This document shows positions 1,238-19,236 of a stretch of 64,000 nt of DNA, piece after piece (position 1 is the first letter of the stretch; each line of letters begins with the position of its first letter). The notes beneath the pieces were generated by a model that was not told where the DNA came from, did not search any database, and worked only from the letters and a program-made list of their open reading frames with translations. The DNA comes from Anaeromassilibacillus sp. An200 (GTDB taxonomy: Bacteria > Bacillota > Clostridia > Oscillospirales > Acutalibacteraceae): assembly GCF_002160025.1 (NCBI RefSeq), contig NZ_NFJU01000014.1:1-64000 (forward strand), written 5' to 3'. The position numbers and the translations under genes are program-made.

Positions 1238-1279
1238 CATTTTTTAAGGAGAAGTGAGAATACATGAAATTAGGTATCG
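1238..1279. repeat. attL, left copy of the 42-bp attachment repeat
   Basis: Identical over 42 bp to 13358-13399; bases on both sides differ. It holds TTAAGGAG, the ychF ATG and 13 further coding bases. The left flank is chromosomal, the right flank is element DNA. Confidence 0.93.
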
Positions 1280-1427: not shown

Positions 1428-1481
1428 AGAAATCGGCAGATTTGCAGATGAAGAAGAGCACTACTACTTTGAGAAAGAACA

Positions 1482-1525
1482 AAGATGAGCACGGCCTATA
1501 CAAACGGGCCGTGCTCATCTTTTTT
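1482..1525. terminator. Strong terminator at the left end of the element
   Basis: A perfect 15-bp stem (1482-1496 with 1507-1521), 10-base loop and a run of T on the plus strand. It lies downstream of the leftward cargo genes and also faces transcription entering from the old ychF promoter, so it can insulate both sides. Confidence 0.85.
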
Positions 1526-1547: not shown

Positions 1548-1979
1548 TTACTTGTCATCGCTATTAGCGGGATTTTGACGAAAATCCTCTTGAACGCCTT
1601 CGTTCAGATCAAAGCACATGGTTTTTGCATCAGCAACCCAGAAGCCGCGAACGCGGTACCGCTTGCCCGGAACCCAATCCTCGCCCGTGGCGGCGCGGAG
1701 CGGTTCCAGCAAATTTTTGCTGGAAATCGTCACAACGCCCTTCTGTTCACCCCGCGGCTTGGAGAACTTAAAGCCCTTCGGCTCACTGCTCTTGCACATA
1801 CGGATTGCAAACACCTTTGCCTTGGCATCCAGCAGGCACAGCACATAAGCGGGATAACCCATATCCTCCAACACCTTCTTGCTGAAGGTAACGCCGCTCT
1901 GGTTGAGGTACATATCCGGGTAAGCGTTGATGTTGGAGTCAATCGTTTCAAAATTCAGAGAAGAAAAATCAAAATTCAT
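1548..1979 (-). CDS. Hypothetical protein, last gene of the cargo strand
   Basis: 143-residue soluble protein that I do not recognise. The start at 1979 is chosen for the AAAGGA element about 8 bases upstream; a longer reading from 2024 lacks one and overlaps the recombinase. It follows the serine recombinase by 13 bp, so the two are probably co-translated, and the terminator at 1482-1525 closes the transcript. There are no membrane segments and no obvious catalytic motif; the tail ends in a polar DEF..NPANSDDK stretch. The coupling suggests a partner or accessory of the recombinase, but this is inference from position only. Confidence 0.75.
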   Translation of the reverse strand: MNFDFSSLNFETIDSNINAYPDMYLNQSGVTFSKKVLEDMGYPAYVLCLLDAKAKVFAIRMCKSSEPKGFKFSKPRGEQKGVVTISSKNLLEPLRAATGEDWVPGKRYRVRGFWVADAKTMCFDLNEGVQEDFRQNPANSDDK

Positions 1980-1992
1980 TGGTAAAATCCTT

Positions 1993-3195
1993 TCATTTCG
2001 TATTATCTTGTGTGTCATCGACAATTTTCATAAATTCCTGCCGTTCAGCAGGAGACCACCGGGAATCCAGAATCAAATACCCTTTGAACAGGCCATCTTT
2101 GACGCGGTGAGCGACAAAGCGGTTGCTCAGGAAACGCAGTTTCGCCTTATGGGGTGAAGTGTGCCGCTCAGACAACAGCTTTTGCACTTTCAGCCAGTCC
2201 TCTTTTTTGATAATTGCTGTATGGTGATTTTCCTTGAAGTACATATTCAGGTCTGTGTTTTTCACAGACTTGTGGGTGCGGAAATCCTTGGTGTAGGTTT
2301 TCTGCATCAAGGCATCACCACAGTATTTTTCGTTTCGGAGGATGCTGCGGACGGTACCGGCAGACCAGCTATCGTTGCCCATAGGGGATTTGATCCCCTG
2401 TTCGGTCAGTGCAACCGCAATCTCTGACGGCGATGCTCCTTCCAGACAGCTTTCGTAGATGTACTCAACAATCCTTGCCTCGGTCGGCTCAATCACCAGA
2501 CGGCCAAAGTGGTCGCGGTAGAATCCCAGAGTATTCTGTACAGAGAATTTGTAAATCCCCTCAGCCATACGCCAGCGAATACCCGCTTTGATGACCTCGC
2601 TTTTCTGCTGGGACTCCATTTCTGCCAGCGCGGACAGAAGAACGATTAACAGATTGTTCTTTCCATCGCCCGTGTAGGTGATGTGCTCCGTCTCAAATTC
2701 CACCGAGACAGGAGGATTCAGCGCAGAAAGAACATTTAGGTTGTCCAGTATGTCTACAATATTCCGGCCAAAGCGGCTGATGCTCTTGGTAAGGATCAGA
2801 TCAATTTTTCCGTCCACTGCATCGGCAATCATTTTTTGAAAACCAAGGCGCTTTTTGACGGTCGTGGCGCTGATGCCCTCGTCCTGATAGATTTCTACCA
2901 GCTCCCAGTCGGGATTACCTTCAATCCGCTGGGTAAAATGCCGGACCTGCATATCGAAACTGCCAACCTGTTCTTCTTCCTGTGTGCTGACACGGCAATA
3001 TGCCGCAACACGCAGTTTGGGGCGCTCTTGCTGCACTTCCTGCAACTTCTTGGGCAGAATCACAATAACGCCGTTGCTGCGCTGATTCTCCGCAATCTCG
3101 TCCTGCATGAGTTTGCGCCGCTGTTCCCTGCGCTCGGCACGGCTGCTAAACTGACGGGCCGATTCTATCTTCTTGGGATCAAGCGGTTTCGCCAT
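1993..3195 (-). CDS. Serine recombinase (resolvase/invertase plus recombinase domain)
   Basis: 400 residues. Residues 1-60 are charged and unusual for the family. A resolvase catalytic domain follows, with AAYCRVST (Ser at about 70) and LTKSISRFGRN, then a DNA-binding 'recombinase' domain with WSAGTVRSILRNEKYCGD. It cuts and rejoins DNA through a phosphoserine link. The GGAGG 9 bases before the ATG supports the start, which overlaps a short upstream ORF. At about 400 residues it is shorter than large phage serine integrases and lacks most of their long C-terminal region. The tyrosine integrase next to attR is the likelier enzyme for this element, so this one may act on the left module or be cargo from another element. 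Confidence 0.88.
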   Translation of the reverse strand: MAKPLDPKKIESARQFSSRAERREQRRKLMQDEIAENQRSNGVIVILPKKLQEVQQERPKLRVAAYCRVSTQEEEQVGSFDMQVRHFTQRIEGNPDWELVEIYQDEGISATTVKKRLGFQKMIADAVDGKIDLILTKSISRFGRNIVDILDNLNVLSALNPPVSVEFETEHITYTGDGKNNLLIVLLSALAEMESQQKSEVIKAGIRWRMAEGIYKFSVQNTLGFYRDHFGRLVIEPTEARIVEYIYESCLEGASPSEIAVALTEQGIKSPMGNDSWSAGTVRSILRNEKYCGDALMQKTYTKDFRTHKSVKNTDLNMYFKENHHTAIIKKEDWLKVQKLLSERHTSPHKAKLRFLSNRFVAHRVKDGLFKGYLILDSRWSPAERQEFMKIVDDTQDNTK

Positions 3196-3238
3196 ATCCT
3201 GCCTCCATCGAATTTACAGCCTTTTTCCCGTGCTGCAT
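3179..3238 (-). CDS. Possible 19-residue leader peptide of the serine recombinase
   Basis: ATG at 3238 is preceded by AAAGGAGG at a good distance; the frame ends 17 bases inside the recombinase gene. Such an overlap is typical of translational coupling. The peptide is basic and unrecognised. Confidence 0.35.
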   Translation of the reverse strand: MQHGKKAVNSMEAGYGETA

Positions 3239-3276
3239 GGGTATGCCACCTCCTTTGCGCGAATTTGTCTTTTCAC
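3214..3276 (-). CDS. Possible 20-residue upstream ORF with GTG start
   Basis: GTG at 3276 follows GGGAGGCG by about seven bases. The frame overlaps the start of the 19-residue ORF at 3238 and ends before the recombinase. Together they make a chain of overlapping short frames with separate ribosome binding sites. Confidence 0.3.
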   Translation of the reverse strand: MKRQIRAKEVAYPCSTGKRL

Positions 3277-3310
3277 CTGTATCGCCTCCCTGTGCGTTTA
3301 TTTATGACAA

Positions 3311-3376
3311 CCCCTGCGGGACGAATCCCCACAGGGTAGTCACCATAAGAAAAAGGCAGCAGATTTCTCTGCTGCC
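3311..3376 (-). terminator. Two hairpins after res, the second a terminator
   Basis: On the minus strand, GGCAGCAGA..TCTGCTGCC followed by five T (3350-3376) comes right after the res stop codon. A second stem (CCCTGTGGG/CCCGCAGGG, about 3314-3335) follows. They probably separate the R-M transcript from the serine recombinase transcript. Confidence 0.75.
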
Positions 3377-3410
3377 CCATCAGAAACCATGAGATGCGGT
3401 TATTCACTTA

Positions 3411-6014
3411 TTATAGGGCTTCGACCGTCTCCAAAAACTGCCCCATGCTCACCGCTCCGTGCGGCAGATTTTCCTCGTTCTGGAACACCATGTAATAGCG
3501 GTACTGGTTCCCAGCAGCATTCCGCCAAGCCGCACCCAGCTCGATTTTCTCCTGACTGTCATCGTTTTTCAGGTGTTCGCCCTTGGTTTCGGCGAGGATG
3601 ATCTTACCGCTCTTGGTCATAATCATAATGTCCGGATAGTGGTTAAAGTAGCCGTTGATGGCAAAGTCGTGCCGGGCGATATTCCGGTGCCACCACAGCA
3701 CATTGGGAATGGCCGTCAACTGCTTTACCAGCGCCTGTTCCAGCGTGTTCATGTCCTCCTCGGCCTCATAGAGCGACCTTCCGTAAATCGCCGTACTGCT
3801 TATGGGGTGGATTGCCGCAGGCAGGCGGTAATTGGGTTCACACACGATTTTGCCCCGGTCAAGCCAAGTGAAGAAAGTTTCCTTGTAGTGCTGTTCCAGC
3901 AGAGTCTCAATTTTGGCGCGAATTTTTGCGGCGAAGCCCAGCGGGGCTTTTTCCATCGCGGCAAGCTGCTCCCGATCCATCCCATCCACAATGAGATTGA
4001 CATAGACGCGCAAGTCGCCGCCATCCACCATGTTCAGCTTGTCCAACTGGTGGATCATCATTTCTTTACATTGGCGCACCCGGCTCTCAGGCGGCAAGCT
4101 GCTGAAATGCTCCTTGAAATACCGCTGGTCGGCAGCTTCCATCTGGTAAGCCCTCGGCACACTGCGGCCAGTCTCCACATCGACTTTGACGATCTCATCG
4201 TCCGCTGCGGTAAAATCAATGTCGTATGCCTTGCCTTTCAGGGTAAAACCGTCGGCAAGCTGTTCCTTGCTCAACAGCACCTTGTCCCCATCGGTAAACA
4301 GGGATTGCGGAATCACCTGGAAAAACTGCGGGATCAGCAGCCCATCCGCGCTCTCCCGATACTGGGGAATCATACGGAATGTATTCACCTTGTCTCGCAC
4401 CTCCCACGGCAGAGCGGCGGCAAATGGGTCGTTGTCTGCGCCCTGCACCGCCTGATTGTATGCGTCGCCCGCCTGCTGGGCCTCGGCAAGCATACTGTCC
4501 GCTTTTGGGGCGGATTCCGGCGAATTTTCGCTCTCTCTGCGCCGTTGCAGCTCCGCCCCGATGGATTTCCCGTCCAGCTCGGCAAAATCCTCCTGTGGGG
4601 CTTCTGGCTCAATAATCGGAAGTTGTTCCGGAACAGAAGCGGGTTTAACCGGTTCTACCGGCTCGGCAAGGCGGTAATCCCTGTCGCTGAAACCGGCGCT
4701 GTTCAGTCCACGGATGATCTGCTGGACCGTATCATTAAAGTCATTGGAGGAAGTCAGCACATAGGACATATTCAAGGACTTTGCCCTGCGCTCGGCGGTG
4801 TAGGGCAGGCGCAGAATGCGCCCTAAAATCTGCTCCACATCCACCTGACTGGTTTTGTTGGCAAGGGAAGCCAGAATATAGGCGAACGGGCAGTCCCAGC
4901 CTTCTTTCAGGGCGTTTACCGTGATGATGTACCGCACCGGGCAATCTGGGGACAGCAAGTCTACATTTTTCAGCTCGTTCACATCGGCGGTACGTATGGC
5001 AATGTGTTCGGCGGGAATCCCGGTGTTCACCAGCTCCGTCCGCAGCTTTTCAAAAGTGGTCGCATCCTCCTTGCCCTTTGGTTGGGCTTGGAACAGGGCG
5101 ATGGGACGGATGTATTTTCCGCCATTCTGATATTCTGCCGCTGCGATTTCTTCCAGCCTGTCCCGCAGGTCGATCGTGTCCATCAGCACCTCGGCCTGAC
5201 TGTCCCGGTTATAGACAATCACCGGCAGCTTGACCATGTGCTCCGCTTTGAGCTGCACCGCATCCACATAGGAGATGATGTTGCTGCGCTTCTTGGGGGT
5301 GGCGGTCAAATCCAGCACAAAGCAGGGGTTGAAATTGGCGAGCATTTCAATGCTTAGCTCCGACCGGGCGTGATGGCTCTCGTCCACAATCACCAGCGGG
5401 TTGAGCTGGTTGATGACCTGAAACAGCGCCGTCTCGTCCGCTTTCTCGATTGGATTTTCCGGCGTGCCCAACACCTTGGCAAAGGCGGCAAGGTTGCTGT
5501 TCTCCTGATAGGCTTTCAAGCCCTCCTTGCCCCGGCCACGGAAGGAATCGTAGGACAGCACCATAATGGAGAGCTGTTCGGTGACGGCGGTGGGGTTGAA
5601 ATTCTGCCCGTTCAAAAGCTCCTGCTTGGTGTAGACTTCCACCCGCCCGCCAAAATCCACATCGATTTTCTGCCGGTAGGGATGGCGTGGGTCTTTCAGG
5701 GTTTTGACTGTCTGTGTCAAAATTGCGTCAGATGGCACCAGCCACACCACCGCTTTTGTCTTGGTGAACGGCAGCGCGTCAAACACGGGCCGGACGGCGT
5801 TGCAGGCGAGAAAGGTTTTCCCGCCGCCGGTGGGCACCTTGAAGCAGAGATTGGGAACGCCGGGCAATACATCCTGATAGCTACCCAGCGTAGGCGCGCT
5901 CTTCTCCTGCCAAAAGAGCCGGAAGGAAGCACTATAGTCTCTGGTTTCGCCCAGCAGTTCCAGATAGCGGTTCAGATCGGCGATAACCTGCCGCTGATAG
6001 GTTTTCAGTTCCAT
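3411..6014 (-). CDS. res: Type III restriction enzyme, Res subunit
   Basis: 867-residue helicase-nuclease. An SF2 helicase core shows PTGGGKT (Walker A, 61-67), VDESHH (about 210), LTATP, and RILRLP (motif VI). The C terminus has a PD-(D/E)xK nuclease: PDIMIMT near 794 and AETKG near 809-811. With Mod it forms the ATP-dependent complex that cuts DNA after sensing unmethylated sites in head-to-head orientation. The start at 6014 is supported by TAAGGAGG; the frame upstream of it overlaps the end of mod and is not needed. It begins 13 bp after mod, the usual mod-res order. Length is in the family range and all motifs look intact, so the enzyme is probably active. Confidence 0.95.
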   Translation of the reverse strand: MELKTYQRQVIADLNRYLELLGETRDYSASFRLFWQEKSAPTLGSYQDVLPGVPNLCFKVPTGGGKTFLACNAVRPVFDALPFTKTKAVVWLVPSDAILTQTVKTLKDPRHPYRQKIDVDFGGRVEVYTKQELLNGQNFNPTAVTEQLSIMVLSYDSFRGRGKEGLKAYQENSNLAAFAKVLGTPENPIEKADETALFQVINQLNPLVIVDESHHARSELSIEMLANFNPCFVLDLTATPKKRSNIISYVDAVQLKAEHMVKLPVIVYNRDSQAEVLMDTIDLRDRLEEIAAAEYQNGGKYIRPIALFQAQPKGKEDATTFEKLRTELVNTGIPAEHIAIRTADVNELKNVDLLSPDCPVRYIITVNALKEGWDCPFAYILASLANKTSQVDVEQILGRILRLPYTAERRAKSLNMSYVLTSSNDFNDTVQQIIRGLNSAGFSDRDYRLAEPVEPVKPASVPEQLPIIEPEAPQEDFAELDGKSIGAELQRRRESENSPESAPKADSMLAEAQQAGDAYNQAVQGADNDPFAAALPWEVRDKVNTFRMIPQYRESADGLLIPQFFQVIPQSLFTDGDKVLLSKEQLADGFTLKGKAYDIDFTAADDEIVKVDVETGRSVPRAYQMEAADQRYFKEHFSSLPPESRVRQCKEMMIHQLDKLNMVDGGDLRVYVNLIVDGMDREQLAAMEKAPLGFAAKIRAKIETLLEQHYKETFFTWLDRGKIVCEPNYRLPAAIHPISSTAIYGRSLYEAEEDMNTLEQALVKQLTAIPNVLWWHRNIARHDFAINGYFNHYPDIMIMTKSGKIILAETKGEHLKNDDSQEKIELGAAWRNAAGNQYRYYMVFQNEENLPHGAVSMGQFLETVEAL

Positions 6015-6027
6015 GTATGTCGCCTCC

Positions 6028-7665
6028 TTACAACCGGCTGATGTCTCTGGGAATTTTCTTGAAAACAATCCCCATCTGCGACAGCTTATCGTCATCGATG
6101 GAGCAGCGGTCGGCGTAAATCACGGTGCCGCCTGCTTTTTCGGTGACGGCAGCCAAGAAATCATAGTCCAGCACCGTGATCCGCTGCGGTTCGTAGTAGA
6201 AGTAATAGCCGGTATCGTTGTGCTTACCGAGGTAATAGAGATTCTCCCCAGCGGCGGGCGTATAGGGCGTTTTCGTCTCCATGAACCAGATGTACTCCCG
6301 GATTTTTTCGGGCGCAACAGCTTCGTTCAGGTTTTCGCCGATGAGCAGCGGCTCGCCCAGCTCGTAGTAGCTGAAATTGCCGCTGGTGCCCTCCACTGCG
6401 CTCTTACCCTCGCCGTAGCCTCGGATGACCCGGCGTACCCGCTCGGCGGTGATGCTGTCGGCGTAGTCCATCATCTCCACCAAGATGAATTTGCGGTGCC
6501 CGCCGTCTGCCTTGTTCATGTTAAGGACGGCGTGGGCGGTGGTGCCAGAGCCTGCAAAGGAATCAAGAATAATCGAATCTTTTGCCGTAGCAATTTGGAT
6601 AATTCGCTGAACTAAACGAACAGGTTTAGGATAATCAAATGTAGCCGTTTTCCCAAAAATAGTTGTAATTTCCTTAGTTGCCTCTTGCGTATGGCCAACC
6701 TCGGTGTTAGGCCACCAAGTCCATATGTTACGACCTTCGCGTTCAGACAAATATGTTTTTTTCCTTGGAACTCCTTTTCCATCTGCACCAAACCAAATTC
6801 GACCAGCGGCTATTTCTTCGTCCATTCGCGCTTTTGTAAATCGCCAACATAGATTGTCCGGCAAGTCAATAATACGCCCACTTGGTGTAATCATTGTGTA
6901 AAACTGATCTTTTGTCCCGTGGCCAGCTTGCGCTGTACAGTCAGTTGAAACCCATGGGCCACGAGGATCATTATCGGGATTTTTATATTTTCTTTTATCC
7001 GCATCAGAAAAACTAAGCTGATTAATGGAATTATCGGCCATATTAATGTTTTTTAGATATGCACAAATATACTCGTGTCCAGTACTTACTTTCCTGCGAG
7101 CATCTGGAGAAGTACGCTTTTGCCAAACCATTTGTGCCAGAAAATTTCTTGCACCAAATATTTCATCACAAATCATACGCAATAGCATTTGAGCATTGTC
7201 ATCAATGCTGATAAAAATAACTCCATCCTCCGCCAGCAGCTTTTGCAGCAGTTTCAGCCGGGGGTACATCATGCACAGCCACTTGTCGTGGCGGGTCAGG
7301 TCCTCGCCCTCTTTGCCCACCACTTCGCCCAGCCATTTTCTGATTTTCGGGTCGTTTACATTGTCGTTGTACACCCAGCCCTCGTTGCCGGTGTTGTAGG
7401 GCGGATCAATGTAGATGCACTTCACCCGTCCCTCATACCGGGGCAGCAGGGCCTTCAGCGCGTCCAGATTATCCCCGTGGATGATCATGTTCTCACTGCC
7501 GTTGCGCCCCAGGGCGGTTTCTCTTGCGCCTTCGGCGCAATTCACCTTCTCCCCGGCGTGCTGGCCGTTTTCGTCAAAGCTGTATTGCCGGTCAAGCACC
7601 CGGAACGGCACTTCCTGATGGTGGTTGATGACTTTCTCTTTTCCAATCCACTCCAATGTCGGCAT
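6028..7665 (-). CDS. mod: Type III DNA methyltransferase, Mod subunit
   Basis: 545-residue adenine-N6 methyltransferase of the beta group: the catalytic DPPYNTG (87-93) precedes the AdoMet-binding FAGSGTT (370-376). Mod supplies sequence recognition for methylation and for the Res complex. Residues about 150-370, the target recognition part, are encoded by DNA (about 6555-7220) that is clearly richer in A and T than both flanks. That is a sign of exchange of the recognition module. The start at 7665 follows GGGAGGAACGACC. The product ends 13 bp before res. The site recognised cannot be predicted from sequence alone. Confidence 0.95.
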   Translation of the reverse strand: MPTLEWIGKEKVINHHQEVPFRVLDRQYSFDENGQHAGEKVNCAEGARETALGRNGSENMIIHGDNLDALKALLPRYEGRVKCIYIDPPYNTGNEGWVYNDNVNDPKIRKWLGEVVGKEGEDLTRHDKWLCMMYPRLKLLQKLLAEDGVIFISIDDNAQMLLRMICDEIFGARNFLAQMVWQKRTSPDARRKVSTGHEYICAYLKNINMADNSINQLSFSDADKRKYKNPDNDPRGPWVSTDCTAQAGHGTKDQFYTMITPSGRIIDLPDNLCWRFTKARMDEEIAAGRIWFGADGKGVPRKKTYLSEREGRNIWTWWPNTEVGHTQEATKEITTIFGKTATFDYPKPVRLVQRIIQIATAKDSIILDSFAGSGTTAHAVLNMNKADGGHRKFILVEMMDYADSITAERVRRVIRGYGEGKSAVEGTSGNFSYYELGEPLLIGENLNEAVAPEKIREYIWFMETKTPYTPAAGENLYYLGKHNDTGYYFYYEPQRITVLDYDFLAAVTEKAGGTVIYADRCSIDDDKLSQMGIVFKKIPRDISRL

Positions 7666-7784
7666 GGTCGTTCCTCCCTATTGCTGCTATCGTAAAAGAC
7701 CTTTCCCGTATCGGGAGGGCCGTATTTTGTCCAATCGAACCCGAACCGTGTTGCGGGCATCTTAATTTCGAGTGCAGTTCACGG

Positions 7785-8609
7785 TCAGCCAACCAGCGTT
7801 TTCAGTACATCCATAATCTGGCTGTACTCAATGTGGGCGGCATAGGCAAACTGCTTGCGGTACTTTTCCCACATGGCTTTGAGTTCCCGGCTGCTCTCGA
7901 TGTTGTGCAGAATGGCGGACACATCCGCAATCTGATGAGCTGTGCCGCGATGGGTTGCGGTGGCGTTTAACGCTTCGGCGAATACCGCCTTATCAAATTT
8001 CTGTGTGGTTGCCAGAATGTAAGCATCGTAAAAATCTCTCGGTCGGGTGTTGAACACGCCGCGCCGCAGGATGGTCTCCACCTTTTCCGCCATGACGGTT
8101 TCGATGTTGTACGCCCATAGCTCGTAGGATTTCTCGTCATCGAAAATTTCTGAAAACCGGTACTGCACCGCGTGGGGCGTAATAGCGTCCCCGGTGGACA
8201 CATCAATGCTCAGCGGGGTAATCAGCGTATCAAAATGGGCGTTCAGCATCACACGGTAGCCGCCGTAAATGTCATCCTCCCGGATAGGCAAGATTTTCCT
8301 CACCTTAAAGGTCACGCCGTCGTCAAAGGAAACGGCGGCCACCTGCTCCAATGCGTTGCGGATAGCCTCCGGGGTTAGGGGCAGATTTTTCAGCGTTGTG
8401 TCCAAATCCATCGTCGCCCGATTGTCCAGCCCCACGATGGCCGCCACCAGCATCCCGCCTTTCAACACAAACTTGTCCTTGTACTCCGATGCCGCAAGCC
8501 GGACAAGCAGGCGCTCGAACATATAGTTCTGCAAAATGACCTGTGCCGGGATATTTTTCTGCTTGGCGATGTTGCGGATTTTTGCTTTCAGACTCATGGC
8601 ATTGCTCAC
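7785..8609 (-). CDS. abiEii: AbiEii/AbiGii-type nucleotidyltransferase toxin
   Basis: 274 residues, DUF1814-type nucleotidyltransferase. Visible motifs: VLKGGMLV (49-56), the acidic DLD (68-70) that would bind metal and nucleotide, a Lys in MAEKVETI (about 176) and RPRDFYD (189-195). Members of this family modify tRNA ends or similar substrates and stop growth during phage infection. The start is a GTG at 8609 with GGAGG upstream; its first four bases overlap the stop of the partner gene (GTGA), the classic layout of a type IV toxin-antitoxin pair. The 119 bp between it and mod hold no convincing gene. Confidence 0.92.
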   Translation of the reverse strand: MSNAMSLKAKIRNIAKQKNIPAQVILQNYMFERLLVRLAASEYKDKFVLKGGMLVAAIVGLDNRATMDLDTTLKNLPLTPEAIRNALEQVAAVSFDDGVTFKVRKILPIREDDIYGGYRVMLNAHFDTLITPLSIDVSTGDAITPHAVQYRFSEIFDDEKSYELWAYNIETVMAEKVETILRRGVFNTRPRDFYDAYILATTQKFDKAVFAEALNATATHRGTAHQIADVSAILHNIESSRELKAMWEKYRKQFAYAAHIEYSQIMDVLKTLVG

Positions 8610-9199
8610 AGTAGTACCTCCAAATATTGGCGCAGTACTCCCGACACCCTCATCTGATGGGCATACTCATCCAGCCGGTTCAAGTCCTTCTTCGGGCTGG
8701 CGGCGTACTGTTTCAGCGCCGATAAAAATGTCTCCGTCCCAATCTTGTTACGGCTGCGGATTACATCGCAGATGGTGCGCTCCAAATCGTAGCAGGGAAC
8801 GGGATTTCCAGCGGGAGTTTCCAGCATTGTTTTGCCCAGCTCGAACAGCTCCGGCTTGATGTAGTACACCTTGCACTCCGCCTTGATGGCCGCAGACGGA
8901 ATGCAGCCAGAGGGCGCAGTTACGGTGTGCTCAAAGGGTGTCCGGTCGGAAATTCCATGAAGAAACAGCGCCGTCTCGTGGGAAAAAATAATGTTTTTCG
9001 ACCGGCGGCTGATGGACAGTAATTCGTCCTGCATATCCTCCGGGAGAACATATTGCCCCTTGACGATGCGGTGAATCTTTTCTGCTTTGCACAGCTTATA
9101 GAGCATCGCTTTGGAAATGCCGTACTGCGCCGCCGTTTTCGTTTCGATGATGCCGCCGTTTTTATTCGCAATCGCGGCCAGTTCCGCCATATAGTCCAT
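8606..9199 (-). CDS. abiEi: AbiEi-type antitoxin, winged helix
   Basis: 197 residues. The N terminus (about residues 5-60) is a winged helix-turn-helix like that of AbiEi, with YGISKAMLYKLCKAEKI as the recognition region; the rest matches the AbiEi C-terminal antitoxin domain in layout (SHETALFLHGISDR, YDLERTICDV). In characterised systems it represses its own operon and counteracts AbiEii without binding it directly. The start at 9199 is preferred to 9220 because GAGGTGAGCGG precedes it and it fits the promoter at 9230-9258. It is the first gene of the cargo strand; translation is coupled to the toxin. Confidence 0.9.
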   Translation of the reverse strand: MDYMAELAAIANKNGGIIETKTAAQYGISKAMLYKLCKAEKIHRIVKGQYVLPEDMQDELLSISRRSKNIIFSHETALFLHGISDRTPFEHTVTAPSGCIPSAAIKAECKVYYIKPELFELGKTMLETPAGNPVPCYDLERTICDVIRSRNKIGTETFLSALKQYAASPKKDLNRLDEYAHQMRVSGVLRQYLEVLL

Positions 9200-9229
9200 C
9201 CGCTCACCTCGCAATAACAACCTGATAAT

Positions 9230-9258
9230 AGTATATCCAAAATCACGATGATAGTCAA
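9230..9258 (-). promoter_or_regulatory. Promoter of the AbiE/type III R-M cargo strand
   Basis: On the minus strand TTGACT (9253-9258), 17 bp, TATACT (9230-9235), about 30 bp before the abiEi start. Confidence 0.65.
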
Positions 9259-9274: not shown

Positions 9275-9338
9275 ATCAAGATAAAATTGAAGCCGATACT
9301 ATGATGTAAGTCAATTCTCGTTACGAGTTAACAGGGGT

Positions 9339-9620: not shown

Positions 9621-9950
9621 ATGGCTGAACGCACAAGGCCGATCCGCATCGAGTTCTGCGTCACCGAGCAGGAGCGTCAGCTTATCCAAAGCAAGATGGC
9701 TCAGCTCGGTACTAAGAACATGGGCGCATATCTCAGAAAAATGGCAATCGACGGCTACATCATCAAAGTGGATTACACCCAGCAGAAAAAGCTGGCCGCA
9801 GCCGTCAGCCGGGTTGCCAGCAATATCAACCAGATTTGCCGCCGGATCAACAGCACCGGGCATCTCTACGCTGAGGATGTTGAGGAGCTGAAAGAACGGC
9901 AAGTCGAGATTTGGTCGCTGCTCAAAGAAAACCAGCGAAAGGAATTGTAA
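9621..9950 (+). CDS. mobC: MobC-like relaxosome protein
   Basis: 109 residues. The N-terminal RPIRIEFCVTEQERQLI resembles a ribbon-helix-helix strand, and the middle carries the MobC pattern (MGAYLRKMAIDGYIIKVDY, then a helix with ASNINQICRRINSTG). Such proteins bind oriT and help the relaxase nick DNA. GAAGGAGA lies about nine bases upstream of the ATG. A relaxase gene would normally follow; here a 58-residue protein and replication genes do, so mobilisation would need an enzyme supplied in trans. Confidence 0.85.
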   Translation: MAERTRPIRIEFCVTEQERQLIQSKMAQLGTKNMGAYLRKMAIDGYIIKVDYTQQKKLAAAVSRVASNINQICRRINSTGHLYAEDVEELKERQVEIWSLLKENQRKEL

Positions 9951-10211: not shown

Positions 10212-10886
10212 GTGCCGTTGCCTCGGTTTATCCTTCGGGGAGAATACTCAATCAATGCCAAACTGCTCTATGCGCTGCTGCTGGGACGCACACAGCTCTC
10301 TCAGAAATCCGGCTGGGTTTCGGAGGATGGGGATGTCTATGTGATCTACACCATCCGGCAGATGGCAAATGACCTGAACCGGAGCGAGCGGACGGTCAAG
10401 GCCGCGCTGGCCGAGCTGGAAAATGCGGGCCTTATCACCCGTGTCCGGCAAGGCTGGAACCGGGCAAATCGTATTTTCCTGCAACTACCCGATGAGGTGC
10501 AGCTTTCTTCCCGTCCAGAGGGCAAGTTCTGCCCAATGGATGGGCTGGAATCTTCCCCTTGTATGGGGCAAAATTTGCCCATAAGTAAGAAAGAGAAGAA
10601 GAAAACAGATTCCAGTCAGAATAACAGGAGGGAGAACGCCCGCCGCTGTTTTGGACAGTATCAGAATGTTTTTCTTTTGGACAGGGAATTGGCCGATCTG
10701 CAATCCACATATCCCGGCCAATACGAGGATTACATCAACCGGCTGTCGGCCTATATGGCATCCAGCGGAAAGCACTATGCCAACCATTACGCTACAATCC
10801 GCAAGTGGCTGGACGAGGACAGCAAACCGAAGCCCGGTAAAAATTACGACTATACAGAGACCTATGAGGAAGGAGAATGTCTGTGA
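10212..10886 (+). CDS. RepA-like replication initiator, start uncertain
   Basis: At least 224 residues. The N-terminal part (FILRGEYSINAKLLYALLLGRTQLSQKSGW, then VYVIYTIRQMANDLNRSERTVKAAL) matches the winged-helix domain of plasmid/ICE replication initiator A proteins, and a helical C-terminal domain follows after a polar linker. GTG at 10212 is only the first legal start in frame and has no ribosome binding site. The frame upstream still reads family-like sequence (TIYYKTNTPLPPFVPLPRF) back to a TGA at 10167. A well-placed ATG at 10169 behind AAGGAAGTG is one base out of frame. A one-base change near 10172 would explain this. The 3' end overlaps the next gene by 10 bp. Confidence 0.8.
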   Translation: MPLPRFILRGEYSINAKLLYALLLGRTQLSQKSGWVSEDGDVYVIYTIRQMANDLNRSERTVKAALAELENAGLITRVRQGWNRANRIFLQLPDEVQLSSRPEGKFCPMDGLESSPCMGQNLPISKKEKKKTDSSQNNRRENARRCFGQYQNVFLLDRELADLQSTYPGQYEDYINRLSAYMASSGKHYANHYATIRKWLDEDSKPKPGKNYDYTETYEEGECL

Positions 10887-11740
10887 ATGTGAACCCGATT
10901 ATGGCTGCAATCGTTGAGGCAGCAGAGACCCTAAACACCGCCCCGGATGATTACATCAACCCGGATGACGGGCTGAAATACTGCGGCAAGTGCCACACGC
11001 CCAAGGAAGCCTATTTTCCCGAACAGTACCGCAAAAACGGGTTGGACAAGCACCCGATTGACTGCAAATGCGCCGCTGAGGAACGGGCGCGGCGCGAAGC
11101 GGAGCAACGGGAGCTGGAACGGCTGAACCGGATTGCCATGCTCCGCTCCGAAGCGTTCCGGGATATTCCCGCCGCCAGATGGCGGTTTGAAAATGCCGAG
11201 GTGATGACTCCACAGCTTGTTAAAGCGAGAAGATATTCCGAAAACTGGGATAGTTTCCACCAAGATGGAACCGGGCTGCTCTTGTTTGGGAATGTTGGCA
11301 CCGGGAAATCCTATGCAGCGGGCTGCATTGCCAACGCCCTGATTGAAAGAATGGTTTCCGTCCTATTTGCCGGGCTGTCCGATGTGGTGAACCGGATGCA
11401 GGGCAATTTCGGCGCTGACCGGGATGCCTACATGAAAATGCTGATGCGCCCGGAGCTGCTGATTTTGGATGACCTGGGCGCGGAGCGTAACACCAGCTTC
11501 GGCAGGGAGCGCGTGTTTGATGTGGTCAATAAGCGTTTGTTGACCGGCAAACCGATGATCGTCACCACCAACATCCCACTCTCTGTGATGCAGAAAGCTG
11601 CCGATCTGGATGAGCTCCGTATCTATGACAGGGTTTTGGAGGTCTGCATCCCCATCCAGTTTAACGGTGAGAATTTCCGAAAGGGCAATGCCGCGGAAAA
11701 TGTGAAGCGGGCAGCAAGAATTTTGAATCAGGAAAATTGA
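10877..11740 (+). CDS. DnaC/IstB-like ATP-binding protein
   Basis: 287 residues of the AAA+ helicase-loader family. An N-terminal zinc-like cluster (YCGKCHTP ... DCKCAAEE) precedes the ATPase core with GNVGTGKS (Walker A) and LILDDLGAE (Walker B), plus VTTNIPL as sensor region. It probably loads the host replicative helicase at the element's origin together with the initiator encoded just upstream, which it overlaps by 10 bp. AAGGAGAATG gives the ribosome binding site. Similar gene pairs are common in clostridial integrative elements that replicate after excision. Confidence 0.88.
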   Translation: MSVNVNPIMAAIVEAAETLNTAPDDYINPDDGLKYCGKCHTPKEAYFPEQYRKNGLDKHPIDCKCAAEERARREAEQRELERLNRIAMLRSEAFRDIPAARWRFENAEVMTPQLVKARRYSENWDSFHQDGTGLLLFGNVGTGKSYAAGCIANALIERMVSVLFAGLSDVVNRMQGNFGADRDAYMKMLMRPELLILDDLGAERNTSFGRERVFDVVNKRLLTGKPMIVTTNIPLSVMQKAADLDELRIYDRVLEVCIPIQFNGENFRKGNAAENVKRAARILNQEN

Positions 11741-11771: not shown

Positions 11772-11978
11772 ATGGAAAATTCCATCGGCAAGGTGCCGAT
11801 CCACCTGAAAATGACACTCACGGCAAAGGAAGCCGCCGAATACAGCAATATCGGAATCAATAAAATCGACAGTATGCTGCGTTCTCCAAACTGCCCATTC
11901 GTACTTTTTGTGGGCAGCAAGAAATTAGTGAAGCGCAAAGAATTTGAACAGTACATCAGTCAGGTACTCGTGATCTGA
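11772..11978 (+). CDS. xis: Excisionase, Tn916 Xis-like
   Basis: 68 residues. LTAKEAAEYSNIGINKIDSMLRS is a MerR-like winged-helix start, followed by the strand FVLFVGSKKLVKRKEFEQYI, the usual pattern of Tn916-type excisionases. It bends DNA at the element ends and biases the integrase towards excision. GAAAGGGG precedes the ATG. It lies 110 bp before the integrase with a hairpin in between. Confidence 0.88.
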   Translation: MENSIGKVPIHLKMTLTAKEAAEYSNIGINKIDSMLRSPNCPFVLFVGSKKLVKRKEFEQYISQVLVI

Positions 11979-12014: not shown

Positions 12015-12062
12015 AAAAGAGCACCATGCGCTATACTATATAGTGTAGTAGTGTGCTCTTTT
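12015..12062. terminator. Hairpin between xis and int
   Basis: AAAAGAGCAC (12015-12024) pairs with GTGCTCTTTT (12053-12062), with a further AT-rich palindrome inside. The T-rich 3' arm makes it a plausible terminator or attenuator limiting read-through from xis into int. Confidence 0.6.
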
Positions 12063-12088
12063 CTTCTCTGCGGGAAAGGAGCTCATCC

Positions 12089-13270
12089 ATGGGAAAGAAT
12101 TTCAAGGGAAAAGACTGCGGTAAGGGTATCTACCAAAGAAAGGACGGATTGTATAGCGCACGATTTGTTGATAAGGCCGGGAAGCGGCATGAGAAGTATT
12201 TTCAGACGCTGCCCGAAGCGCGAAACTGGATTGAGGACGCAAAGTACGCCGATAAGCATGACGATGTGTTTGTCGCTACCGATACGACAGTGGATGAATG
12301 GTTTGAATTCTGGATTGAAAATATTGTCGGGGATCTGGCTCCTAACACGCTCAGAAATTACCGGGAACGCTATGTCCGCAATATTCAGCCGGTCATCGGG
12401 AAGATGCTGATTGCCAATGTAAAACCGATGCACTGCAAAAAGGTGTTTATCCAGATGGATGCTGATTACGCAGGTTCCACCATTCGTCAGGCATACATCA
12501 CGATGGGGACAATGTTTAAGGCTGCGAAGATGAACGACCTGATTGCAAAGCACCCCATGGATGGCGTTCGGTTTACAAAGCCTGTTCGCGCTGTGGATGA
12601 TATTCACTATCTGACGCGGGAGGAACAGCGCCTATTTCTTGAAACAGCACGGCGCTCCCACAATTACAACCAGTATGCGCTCATCCTTGAGACCGGATTG
12701 CGCACCGGAGAAATGATTGGCTTAACATGGGATGCCATCGACTTTGAGCGCCGGACGCTTACGGTGAACAAGACCTTGGAGTTTCGTCACGCACAGAAAG
12801 TTTGGCGTGCCGGTCCTCCCAAAACTCAGCAGAGCTATCGCACTATTCCTTTGACGGATAAAGCGTATGACATTCTGAAAGAGGTGTGGGATAGCCGGAG
12901 CAGCAGAAAAGAATCCCCCCTGCTGTCACAAACGCTGGAATACATGGATAGGCGCACCGGCGTTACTTCCCGGCTTGTGATGCGGGATCTGGTCTTTATC
13001 AACTGGCGCACAGGGGAACCGGCGAAAAACAGTTCCTATGATACCCACCTCTATAAGCTTTGCGATGAAGCGGGGATCAACCGCTTTTGTATGCACGCTC
13101 TGCGCCATACCTACGCAACCCGTGCGATTGAAAGCGGAATGCAGCCGAAAGTGCTGCAAAAGCTGCTGGGGCACGCCAGCATCAAAACCACAATGGATCG
13201 GTATGTCCATGTAACCGATGAAACGCTGGATCAGGCAGTCAAGCAATTTCAACTCAGCAGCGTATGTTGA
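12089..13270 (+). CDS. int: Tyrosine integrase, Tn916 family
   Basis: 393 residues. An AP2-like arm-binding N terminus ([26 protein letters not shown]) is followed by a SAM-like core-binding domain and the catalytic domain: Arg205 in ETGLRTGE, His336 and Arg339 in HALRHTY, His362 in LLGHAS and Tyr372 in DRYVH. It would join attB and attP and, with Xis, reverse the reaction. ATG at 12089 is chosen for the AAAGGAG seven bases upstream. It ends 88 bp before attR, the usual place for the element's own integrase. No promoter of its own is obvious. Confidence 0.95.
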
Positions 13271-13357: not shown

Positions 13358-13399
13358 CATTTTTTAAGGAGAAGTGAGAATACATGAAATTAGGTATCG
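13358..13399. repeat. attR, right copy of the 42-bp attachment repeat
   Basis: Identical to 1238-1279. The ychF start codon in use (13384) and its ribosome binding site are inside it; chromosomal ychF sequence continues to the right. Confidence 0.93.
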
Positions 13400-14478
13400 T
13401 CGGTCTGCCCAACGTGGGCAAAAGCACGCTGTTCAACGCCATCACAAACGCGGGGGCGCAGGCGGCAAACTATCCGTTCTGCACCATCGAGCCGAATGTC
13501 GGCGTCGTGGCTGTGCCGGACAAGCGCCTGGACAAGCTGGCTGAGATGTACCACCCGGAGAAGTACACGCCCGCGACGATTGAGTTTGTGGATATCGCCG
13601 GGCTGGTGCGCGGCGCGTCCAAGGGAGAGGGGCTTGGCAACAAGTTCCTTGCGAACATCCGCGAGGTGGATGCGATTGTGCATGTCGTGCGCTGCTTTGT
13701 GAACGACGATATCGTGCATGTCGAGGGCAGCATCGACCCGGCCCGCGACATCGAGACGATCAACCTCGAGCTGATCCTCTCGGATATGGAGATCCTCGAT
13801 CGCCGCATCGACAAGACGCAGAAGATGCTCAAGGCCGACAAGAAATACCAGGCGGAGCTGGACTTCTTCAAGCGCGTGCGCGAGGCCCTCGACGCGGGCA
13901 AATCGGCGCGCAGTGTGGAGTGCACGCCGGAGGAGGCGGAGCTGCTCTCCACCGTCTCGCTGCTGACGAACAAGCCTGTCATTTACGCGGCGAACATGAC
14001 GGAGTCGGATTTCAAGGACGGCGTGGAGAACAATCCGTATTTCCAGGCGGTGAAGAAGATAGCGGACGAGGAGCATGCCGGTGTGCTGCCGATTTCCGCG
14101 GAGATTGAAGCGGAGATCTCCGGGCTCGAGCCGGAGGAAAAGGAACTGTTTCTCGCGGATATGGGCCTTTCCGAGTCCGGTCTGGATCGCCTGATCAACG
14201 CCTGCTACAGCCTGCTGGGCCTGATCTCCTATCTGACCGCCGGGCAGCCCGAGGTGCGCGCGTGGACGATCACGAAGGGCACGAAGGCGCCCCAGGCCGC
14301 CGGTAAGATCCATTCGGATTTTGAGCGCGGCTTCATCCGCGCCGAGGTCATCGCGTTCGACGATCTCATGGCCTGCGGCTCCATGACGGCCGCCCGCGAG
14401 AAGGGACTTGTCCGCAGCGAGGGCAAGGAGTACGTCATGCAGGACGGCGACATCGTTCTCTTCCGCTTCAACGTCTGA
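13384..14478 (+). CDS. ychF: YchF/OLA1 family ATPase, integration target
   Basis: 364 residues, the full family length. GLPNVGKST is the P-loop, DIAGLVRGASKGEGLG follows, and the C-terminal TGS region ends in MQDGDIVLFRFNV. YchF is a ribosome-associated P-loop protein of the Obg family that prefers ATP and is linked to stress responses. AAGGAG lies about eight bases before the ATG and is contributed by the att repeat. The protein sequence is unchanged by the insertion, but the gene has lost its original promoter at 1126-1154. The 88 bp between int and attR show no strong promoter, so expression may now rely on read-through from int or a weak element promoter. Confidence 0.96.
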   Translation: MKLGIVGLPNVGKSTLFNAITNAGAQAANYPFCTIEPNVGVVAVPDKRLDKLAEMYHPEKYTPATIEFVDIAGLVRGASKGEGLGNKFLANIREVDAIVHVVRCFVNDDIVHVEGSIDPARDIETINLELILSDMEILDRRIDKTQKMLKADKKYQAELDFFKRVREALDAGKSARSVECTPEEAELLSTVSLLTNKPVIYAANMTESDFKDGVENNPYFQAVKKIADEEHAGVLPISAEIEAEISGLEPEEKELFLADMGLSESGLDRLINACYSLLGLISYLTAGQPEVRAWTITKGTKAPQAAGKIHSDFERGFIRAEVIAFDDLMACGSMTAAREKGLVRSEGKEYVMQDGDIVLFRFNV

Positions 14479-16863: not shown

Positions 16864-18213
16864 ATGAAAGCGAAAAAGATTTTGGCCAGTGTGCTGGCCG
16901 GCCTGATGCTTCTTGCCACGGCTGGCTGCAACAACAATGGGGGCGGCTCCACCGCTTCCGGCTCGACGGCTTCCGGCGGCAGCTCGAAGGGCGTGATCGA
17001 GGTAAGCATCCCGTCTTACAAGACGGGCGAGAACGTGGGCGCTGTGTTCTTTGAGCCCCAGGTTGAGCGCTTCAATGAGAAGTATGAGGGTCAGTACAAG
17101 ATTAACCTTGAGACCGTGCCGCAGGACGGCTTCGGCGATCGTCTCAAGCAGCTGGCCCAGCAGAACAAGCTGCCCGTGCTGGTGCAGGGCGGCGACCTGG
17201 ACTGGATCCTGAACGTCGTGATTCCCAACGGCCTGGCTTGGGATATGACCGACTGGCTTGAGGAGTCCGGCCTGCTCGAGCGTGCCGTTCAGGACAGCGT
17301 GGACTACAACAAGGACAAGGGCGACGGCAAAATCTACACCATCCCGAAGATGACCGTGCGTCCGACCGGCTTCTACTACAACACCGCCATGTGGAATCCG
17401 GAGGAGGATCTGAGCTCCCTGACCATGGATGAGCTGGTCACTCTCCTCGGCGATCAGAAGATTGCTTTCTCCACCGCGGAGAACGGCTGGGTTTCCGCTC
17501 TGTTCCTGACGGCTTTCATTGCCAACCAGGAGGGCGGCGTGGAACTGCTCCAGGCCGGCGCTGACGAGAAGATCACCGACTTCAGCGATCCGATCTTCGT
17601 CAATGCTGTGGCTTCCCTGCAGCAGCTTCTGCAGAACAATGCGGCTTCCAACTCCATCGGCGCGGCTTATGCTGACGCTGCCAACGCCTTCATGAGCGGA
17701 CAGGCCGCCGTGATCGCGAACGGCCCCTGGATGTCCAGCGAGTTCAATGAGTCCAACTCCGCCAACTGGAGCAACGGCTTCGACGGCGCAAACGTGAAGG
17801 CTTCCCTCTTCCCCGGCAATGTGGGCATTGAAAACAACCGTGCTTTCGGCGAGTGGTGGATTTCCGCTTCCGCTTCCGAGGAGGAGATCGAGCTGGCCAA
17901 GGCGTTCCTCGAGTTCATCAGCAACCCCGAGGAGCTTGAGGCTTACCTGCTGGCCGAGGGCGGCGACGCTCCGAACATCGAGTACAGTGAGGACTTCAAG
18001 GAGAAGCAGGCTGAGACGCAGGTTCTCGCGGATCTGGCTGCCGACACCACCGAGGAGACGGTCTATGTGCCCTGCATCCTCGACGTGATTCCGAACTCCG
18101 TTGCGAACACGGAATTCGGCAAGCTCCTGCCCTCCCTCGCAAACGGCACCTATACTCCCGAGGAGTTCTGCGACTGGATGACCCAGAAGTCCGTCGAAGC
18201 TTCCGCGGAATAA
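16864..18213 (+). CDS. Sugar ABC transporter substrate-binding lipoprotein
   Basis: 449 residues, family 1 solute-binding protein. Residues 1-21 form a lipoprotein signal (lipobox ATAGC, Cys at about 20-22), followed by a Gly/Ser/Thr linker. The mature part shows the usual family pattern: VERFNEKYEGQYKINLETVP, an FYYNTAMW segment, and AFMSGQAAVIANGPW near the hinge. It would sit on the outer face of the membrane and pass sugar to the two permeases downstream. AAGGAGG precedes the start. A terminator-like hairpin directly after the gene probably makes it more abundant than the permeases. No ATPase gene is in the operon; such systems usually share an MsmK-type ATPase encoded elsewhere. Confidence 0.93.
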   Translation: MKAKKILASVLAGLMLLATAGCNNNGGGSTASGSTASGGSSKGVIEVSIPSYKTGENVGAVFFEPQVERFNEKYEGQYKINLETVPQDGFGDRLKQLAQQNKLPVLVQGGDLDWILNVVIPNGLAWDMTDWLEESGLLERAVQDSVDYNKDKGDGKIYTIPKMTVRPTGFYYNTAMWNPEEDLSSLTMDELVTLLGDQKIAFSTAENGWVSALFLTAFIANQEGGVELLQAGADEKITDFSDPIFVNAVASLQQLLQNNAASNSIGAAYADAANAFMSGQAAVIANGPWMSSEFNESNSANWSNGFDGANVKASLFPGNVGIENNRAFGEWWISASASEEEIELAKAFLEFISNPEELEAYLLAEGGDAPNIEYSEDFKEKQAETQVLADLAADTTEETVYVPCILDVIPNSVANTEFGKLLPSLANGTYTPEEFCDWMTQKSVEASAE

Positions 18214-18237
18214 GCAGAGATACGCAAAAAGGAAGTA

Positions 18238-18286
18238 AAACGGCGCGCCGGCCTGCTGACGATACAGTCGGCTGCGCGCCGTTTTT
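18238..18286 (+). terminator. Partial terminator between binding protein and permease genes
   Basis: AACGGCGCGC ... GCGCGCCGTTTTT with an inner stem. It may attenuate transcription into the permeases. Confidence 0.7.
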
Positions 18287-18327
18287 CCTTATGAGAGAAT
18301 CCGACAAGAGAGGAGAGAGCCCCCGAT

Positions 18328-19236
18328 ATGAAAGCGCCAAAGAGCAGCCCGCGCGTCAAGGCCAGTAAAATGGAGCGGGCCAACTATAAATGGATTTATC
18401 TGTTCCTTCTTCCCACGGTTCTGATATTCCTGATGTTCTATTTCGTGCCGATCATCCAGGTGTTTCTGACCTCCTTCACCAAGTGGGACGGCTTTAACGC
18501 CCCGGAATTCAACGGCCTGACCAACTACATCAACATGTTCACCAACAGCGGCTTTACTTATGCGCTGAAGAACCTCTTCTACTGGTGCCTCGTCGGCATG
18601 TTCCTGCACGTCGGCTTTGGCGTGCTGACGGCTTTCGTGCTGTATCAGAAGCCGCGCGGATGGAAGTTCACCCGCATGGTGTTCATGATCCCGAACGTGA
18701 TCAGCGCCGCCGCCTGGGCGATGATTTACCGCTTCTTCTTCAGCGACGATATGGGCATTCTCAACAGCTTCATCCGGCTGATCGATCCGAACTTCCATGT
18801 GCAGTGGTTCTATACCTCTCCGTGGGCGTTCTGGGCCGTCACCTTCACCTGGCTGTTCTATGCCGTCATCGTCACCCTGCTGGTGCTGGGCGATCTGATG
18901 AACATTCCGCAGGAGCTTAACGAAGCCGCGAAAATTGACGGAGCCTCCGGCTGGCAGCTCGTGCGTCACATCCAGCTGCCGCTGTGCCGCTCCGCGATCG
19001 GCACCTCCGTCATCTGCACGCTGACCTCCCGTATCTCCATGTACGAGCAGATCTCCCTGACCACGCAGGGAGGCCCCGGCGACGACACCATGAGCCTGTC
19101 CATCCTGCTCGTCAAGGGCATCACGGACTACCGCTATGGCTACGCGAATGCCATCGGCGTGCTGATGTTCGTCATCGGCCTGATCATTCTCGGCATCGTG
19201 AACAAGGCGTTCCGTATGGACGTTTCGGATTATTAA
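18328..19236 (+). CDS. Sugar ABC transporter permease, MalF type
   Basis: 302 residues with about six membrane helices. The first spans roughly residues 20-45 (YLFLLPTVLIFLMFYFVPIIQVFL). The cytoplasmic EAA loop is present as ELNEAAKIDGASGWQLVRHIQLP, the contact site for the ATPase. It pairs with the permease encoded 18 bp downstream. GAGAGGAGAGAG precedes the ATG. Confidence 0.93.
   Translation: MKAPKSSPRVKASKMERANYKWIYLFLLPTVLIFLMFYFVPIIQVFLTSFTKWDGFNAPEFNGLTNYINMFTNSGFTYALKNLFYWCLVGMFLHVGFGVLTAFVLYQKPRGWKFTRMVFMIPNVISAAAWAMIYRFFFSDDMGILNSFIRLIDPNFHVQWFYTSPWAFWAVTFTWLFYAVIVTLLVLGDLMNIPQELNEAAKIDGASGWQLVRHIQLPLCRSAIGTSVICTLTSRISMYEQISLTTQGGPGDDTMSLSILLVKGITDYRYGYANAIGVLMFVIGLIILGIVNKAFRMDVSDY

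Follow-up and report, generated by a model that had tools for sequence, protein, structure and literature searches.

An AbiE toxin-antitoxin pair ahead of type III restriction-modification genes in an integrative element at the ychF 5' end: a candidate self-repressed head for exchangeable defence cargo

The 64,000-nt window analysed here (Anaeromassilibacillus sp. An200, assembly GCF_002160025.1, contig NZ_NFJU01000014.1, positions 1 to 64,000, forward strand) contains a 12,120-bp element inserted at the 5' end of the housekeeping gene ychF, with a cargo that includes an AbiE toxin-antitoxin pair and, directly behind it, a complete type III restriction-modification (R-M) system (Table 1). The reading that we favour, with moderate confidence, is that AbiE forms the self-repressed, stabilizing head of this cargo unit, and that the exchangeable R-M genes are transcribed by read-through. 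An earlier annotation of this DNA (the original prediction) placed six genes behind one promoter, in the order abiEi, abiEii, mod, res, a serine recombinase and an unrecognized gene. All six are indeed open, on the minus strand and in that order; the single promoter does not survive, as outlined below.

AbiEi reaches Pfam only with a match below the cut-off, and the pair is recognized by PADLOC and by comparison with known structures. The gene for the antitoxin lies directly upstream of that for the toxin, as in other AbiE systems, and AbiEii retains the nucleotidyltransferase motifs GG...R.T.D.D (at 51) and R.RDFYD (at 189). We place the abiEi start at the ATG at 9199, which has a good ribosome-binding site (RBS); a TTG at 9220 was rejected as too close to the promoter. 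PDB entry 9hlo is labelled AbiGI/AbiGII, and we take it to be the Streptococcus agalactiae AbiE pair under another name, because the score of its antitoxin chain equals that of 6y8q and the aligned residues are practically the same. The window pair resembles the S. agalactiae type IV system in its gene order, 4-nt overlap, promoter just upstream, and combination of a winged-helix antitoxin with a DUF1814 nucleotidyltransferase, and matches it over nearly the full length. S. agalactiae AbiEi, for which a structure is available (PMC7319586), represses its own promoter through inverted repeats (PMC3985639, PMC7319586), and AbiE is known to stabilize a plasmid, autoregulate and confer phage resistance (PMC3985639). 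Elsewhere, an in-frame stop marks the AbiEii of genome G118 (locus L105) as a degraded copy.

The R-M genes are likewise well formed. Mod carries DPPY before, and FxGxG after, its central recognition region, the arrangement of beta-type methyltransferases, and matches PDB 6k0w (E 2.5e-63); Res adjoins it and joins SF2 helicase motifs (TGGGKT, DESH and QILGRILR, at 62, 211 and 395) to a C-terminal PD-ExK motif (PD..ETK, at 794), while its match to EcoP15I Res (4zcf_C) is weak. In all these features the pair resembles EcoP15I-type systems (PDB 4zcf, 6k0w), from which it differs in that AbiE comes first, in what is probably a shared transcription unit. Systems of this type perform ATP-dependent cleavage 25-27 bp from paired asymmetric sites. 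The catalytic motifs of the AbiEi, AbiEii, Mod and Res set are intact and the frames open, which, with the family assignments and structural comparisons, bears out the predicted union of an AbiE pair with full type III R-M. The recognition region of mod is mostly 25-57% identical to that of relatives, compared with 89-96% for their DPPY block; such a divergent, low-G+C segment fits a recognition domain that has been swapped. In one relative (L023) this region is 100% identical to that of the window.

A promoter-like site occurs exactly where the original prediction put one. It is the conservation of its motif among related abiE loci that supports this assignment, as the scan score alone means little; promoter-scan hits in the region are near chance (12 found vs 9.7 expected from shuffled sequence). 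A proximal box, TTGACTnnnATCATAAT, surrounds the -35 element and is conserved upstream of related abiE loci, and a second copy about 56 bp further upstream is present in the window and in G372, L023, G103 and G142. An AbiEi operator in the window is therefore likely, and its form uncertain: strong inverted repeats occur upstream of abiE in a few relatives, while the best inverted repeat in the window promoter (12/20) was equalled by 29 of 200 shuffles and is not significant. The 119-nt spacer between abiEii and mod contains no terminator (z 0.03, folding no better than shuffles) and no consensus promoter in the scan, so that abiEi-abiEii-mod-res can be one transcript. Directly after res, by contrast with the predicted single unit, stands a hairpin with a U run. 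On the strength of this predicted terminator we reject one promoter for all six genes; a shared transcript is probable for abiE-mod-res, and the recombinase and the last gene, which lie beyond the hairpin, probably form a separate unit. A promoter of mod's own, conserved with relatives that lack AbiE, was also considered and rejected, as the alignment shares little beyond the RBS.

The association of AbiE with downstream R-M genes extends beyond the window. In a tree of 51 AbiEii proteins (49 independent loci), that of the window belongs to a clade with 99/96 support and 18 rows, 16 of them independent. Counting R-M genes that start within 1.2 kb (<=1.2 kb) downstream on the same strand, we found one at 6/16 clade loci and 0/33 loci outside (Fisher p 6e-4), a contrast that is indicative only, given that the criterion was chosen after the data were seen and that the rows are related. 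The R-M neighbours comprise the type III system of the window, an N6 methyltransferase with a fused specificity-like region (G103), a type II-like system (G540), an N6_Mtase with HSDR_N (G658), type I HsdM and HsdR (G637), and an N6_Mtase (G617). Other clade members have defence-like neighbours of different kinds, namely an AAA-DUF4143 protein (G142), a KAP NTPase (G521) and a set that includes an HSP90-type ATPase (G548). No description of a recurrent AbiE-first arrangement before R-M genes was found in the literature searched.

The mod-res genes, for their part, are not bound to AbiE. Of mod loci in GTDB genomes, the 80 closest include a single one with AbiE, L023. There the four-gene order of the window recurs at 94-98% identity on a 4.8-kb contig of a metagenome-assembled genome labelled Mailhella (Desulfovibrionaceae), which reflects either recent cross-phylum transfer or mis-binning. 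A dedicated AbiE-Mod-Res system is thereby ruled out; AbiE before other R-M types, together with mod-res pairs lacking AbiE, instead marks the combination as modular. The same facts lend some substance to the possibility, to which we assign a limited but real probability, that AbiE and the type III genes are independent neighbours in a cargo slot, with mod-res driven, independently of AbiEi, by a promoter inside or close to the 119-nt spacer. Relatives of mod-res that mostly lack AbiE must use other promoters, most AbiE loci of the clade have neighbours other than R-M genes, and defence genes cluster in islands in any case. Independence fits less well with a spacer that contains neither consensus promoter nor terminator, and with the polarity of the arrangement, in which R-M genes lie downstream of clade AbiE, several of them 10-160 bp away on the same strand, and never directly upstream (0/16, p 0.018, likewise indicative only).

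Several considerations weigh against the favoured reading of AbiE as a self-repressed expression head. Ten of the 16 clade loci have no R-M gene next to AbiE, and the existence of mod-res pairs without it indicates that mod can be expressed in its absence. Neighbours outside the clade were partly profile-scanned and many were judged by eye, and a few contigs end early; one outside locus (G1252) has HsdM about 2.3 kb downstream, and counting it would raise the outside tally to 1/33. S. agalactiae AbiE is described as bicistronic, with inverted-repeat operators, whereas in the window no terminator stands between abiEii and mod-res, and the boxes form direct repeats, with no significant inverted repeat of the S. 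agalactiae kind.

The linkage of AbiE with several R-M types might also be explained by a closer partnership, in which AbiE guards the R-M system: inhibition or loss of Mod-Res would release AbiEii and halt growth, making of the two a single coupled abortive system. A coupling of immunity and dormancy has been proposed before (PMC3506569). No shared domain or contact is visible between the components, AbiE of the same clade also lies beside KAP ATPases, AAA-DUF4143 proteins and unrelated genes, and AbiE works alone elsewhere (PMC3985639); we accordingly regard guarding as improbable.

The carrier of this cargo is well delimited. As the original prediction of a 12-kb mobile unit implied, a perfect 42-bp direct repeat with a period of 12,120 bp bounds the element, whose G+C content is 0.52 vs 0.61 to its right. 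The ychF frame is intact, and the attR junction is the same beside related integrases. About 15 further genomes of the order have a homologue of the tyrosine integrase (59-99% identity) immediately upstream of ychF, and repeats of GGCGTAAAAATGGCGTA between int and ychF are conserved in the nearer relatives. A site-specific integrase with direct repeats at a defined attachment site (attB) is a feature of integrative and mobilizable elements (IMEs), and we consider the window element integrative and probably mobilizable. Although mobC is present, no relaxase is encoded within the element, so that transfer would depend on a helper. IMEs that lack a relaxase and have an accessory factor have been reviewed (PMC5704250); the window element shares with these non-canonical forms an integrase, an excisionase, a relaxosome accessory protein and the lack of both relaxase and type IV secretion system, and differs in targeting the ychF 5' end and in having RepA_N and DnaC-like genes. 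At the DNA level, the element has no phage match, and its plasmid matches are limited to two short ones in mod, so that neither a phage nor a plasmid origin was retained. A clean empty attB was not obtained within the genus, where G001 and G002 also have integrase sequence at the site, and the left flank of the window has no match in G004.

The lack of a relaxase, and the fragmented or split state of several relatives, could be taken to mean that the element is a decayed remnant that neither moves nor defends any longer. We think this very improbable: cargo and core genes are all open with intact motifs, the att repeats are perfect, copies that are almost identical occur in another family, which implies that it moved recently, and IMEs of the relaxase-less kind are a described class (PMC5704250).

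The same genome contains, at L107 (contig C102), a second AbiE pair beside an apparent relaxase gene, together with a mobC that is 43% identical to that of the element; the apparent relaxase is a possible helper. To the left of attL, at 1126-1154, lies a promoter-like site (TTGTGA-TATACT), which the insertion separates from ychF by about 12 kb, so that ychF in the integrated state has to rely on a different promoter or on read-through from int. The clade of tyrosine integrases at the ychF 5' end (loci L126, L155-L168 and L220) is represented in many genomes across the order and class, and insertion replaces the RBS and first codons of ychF. No description of this integrase family was found in the literature searched, in which the only ychF-adjacent report concerns the pneumococcal satellite prophage PhiBM6001.4, integrated next to ychF at an intergenic site with 26-bp att sequences (PMC10383233). 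It resembles the window element in its location next to ychF, and differs in being a satellite prophage.

Related elements illustrate the exchange of cargo. In G372, which belongs to another family of the same order, int-xis-dnaC-rep-mobC-abiE lies on one contig and res, the recombinase and the 143-aa gene on a second, both 90-98% identical to the window. Within the ychF integrase family, the 13.0-kb element of G420, with att-like sequence on both sides, has mod-res without AbiE, followed inside the element by a Hypoth_Ymh gene, a TIR-domain gene and an AAA gene (L126, 13647-15830); the 7.8-kb element of G307, also with att-like sequences on both sides, has apparent ABC-transporter genes, as judged by eye; G540 has AbiE and then a two-domain methyltransferase protein and a putative restriction endonuclease; and L189 has AbiE with a three-recombinase insertion. 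Outside the G420 element, on the side of its left att, L126 contains another int fragment (78%) along with xis (80%) at 17656-18383, an arrangement that resembles two ychF elements accreted in tandem. At L189 and L191, three consecutive serine recombinase genes fill the cargo slot; IMG/VR calls these loci viral, and their appearance is IME-like.

The remaining cargo probably forms a module apart from abiE-mod-res. The serine recombinase has the first two domains of a large serine recombinase and only about 56 residues after them, and a motif check found no zinc-ribbon CxxC; in view of the missing zinc-ribbon and coiled-coil part, we do not class it as a full member of that group. The 143-aa protein has no match in Pfam, PADLOC, NCBIfam or PHROG, and a homologue 44-45% identical to it lies behind the recombinase homologue of G155. 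Its structural model (predicted local distance difference test, pLDDT, 76) gave no significant match in a PDB fold comparison; the model resembles small uncharacterized phage proteins such as KSY1 Gp105 (E 2.5e-6). The pairing of the 143-aa protein with a short serine recombinase is conserved (L288).

Table 1. Features of the ychF-targeting element, in window coordinates.
Feature	Position	Strand	Evidence or remark
attL	1238..1279	+	42-bp repeat with ychF RBS, ATG and first codons (orphaned ychF 5' end)
Terminator hairpin, strong, probably bidirectional, closing left end	1481..1522	.	-30 to -32 kcal/mol, z ~-7 on both strands
143-aa protein, recombinase partner, function unassigned	1548..1979	-	homologue behind G155 recombinase homologue
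Serine recombinase, 400 aa	1993..3195	-	PF00239, PF07508; catalytic YCRVST
Predicted intrinsic terminator after res	3353..3378	-	11-pair stem and U run, -19.7 kcal/mol, z -3.5
res, type III restriction subunit, 867 aa	3411..6014	-	PF04851; PADLOC REase_III E 3e-80
mod, type III methyltransferase, 545 aa	6028..7665	-	PF01555; PADLOC MTase_III E 4e-205; DPPY at 87, FAGSG at 370
Target-recognition region in mod (aa 191-345), low-GC, divergent	6631..7095	-	GC 0.29-0.46 vs 0.55-0.58 at gene ends
abiEii, nucleotidyltransferase toxin, 274 aa	7785..8609	-	PF08843 E 6e-45; PADLOC AbiEii E 6e-101; PDB 9hlo_B E 4e-48
abiEi, winged-helix antitoxin and regulator, 197 aa	8606..9199	-	PADLOC AbiEi E 1e-69; PDB 6y8q, 9hlo_A E 2e-28
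abiE promoter, TTGACT-N17-TATACT	9230..9258	-	10/12, sigma-70-like; -35 inside proximal conserved box
Distal box copy, candidate AbiEi operator	9298..9315	-	ATTGACTTACATCATAGT; conserved in window, G372, L023, G103, G142
mobC/NikA-like relaxosome accessory protein	9621..9950	+	PF21983, PF05713
RepA_N-type replication initiator	10212..10886	+	PF06970
DnaC/IstB-like helicase loader	10877..11740	+	PF01695; NF005992 above cut-off
xis, excisionase	11772..11978	+	phrog_16129, E 3e-18
Tyrosine integrase, ychF-targeting family	12053..13270	+	PF00589; homologues beside ychF
attR	13358..13399	+	exact match of attL; continues into intact ychF (13384-14478)

Under the favoured reading, the element sits in the 5' end of ychF and restores that gene. 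The most likely role of AbiEi is to repress its own promoter, which would keep AbiEii low and, through read-through over the abiEii-mod spacer, also set the level of the Mod-Res complex, with transcription ending at the hairpin after res. In a new cell, where AbiEi is absent, the unit would be strongly expressed at first and then damped. AbiE would stabilize the element and may abort phage infection, and Mod-Res would methylate the host and cut unmodified incoming DNA. Type II R-M systems are well-documented agents of post-segregational killing; to our knowledge the same is not generally documented for type III, and an addiction effect of the type III genes themselves is doubtful. The original prediction of two addiction systems thus finds support for AbiE, given its known stabilization of a plasmid (PMC3985639), and little for type III R-M. 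Within the AbiE clade of the window, the R-M part is exchangeable, with AbiE as a portable front module. The wider proposition, that one AbiE clade serves as a portable, antitoxin-controlled expression head, whose antitoxin times and then damps the arrival burst of interchangeable R-M systems, is a conjecture that we offer tentatively and consider somewhat unlikely.

The individual parts of this scheme are known. RptR controls a type I R-M island that contains DarTG2 by binding to direct promoter repeats (PMC12255303), and the toxin-antitoxin of that island lies inside the R-M operon; BrxR goes with many different defence systems (PMC9122601). Like those islands, the window has a putative repressor gene and promoter repeats beside defence genes; unlike them, its candidate regulator is the antitoxin itself, and the regulation is predicted. 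At the window unit, neither a WYL-domain (BrxR) protein nor a gene like that of RptR was observed. Together these comparisons suggest that placing R-M genes behind a shared repressor is an established strategy; the new part, if true, would be an antitoxin as the shared repressor for several R-M types. A restriction system that has just entered a host has to spare the host's DNA until methylation is finished, and the timing, often set by controller proteins in type II R-M, is less clear for type III and other R-M systems carried as mobile cargo. An antitoxin repressor that times several unrelated R-M types would, if true, explain why AbiE and R-M travel together, and a single small regulator would allow an element to exchange one R-M type for another while leaving their control as it is. 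More broadly, the ychF-targeting elements are a defined family, whose cargo slot is a place to look for defence genes.

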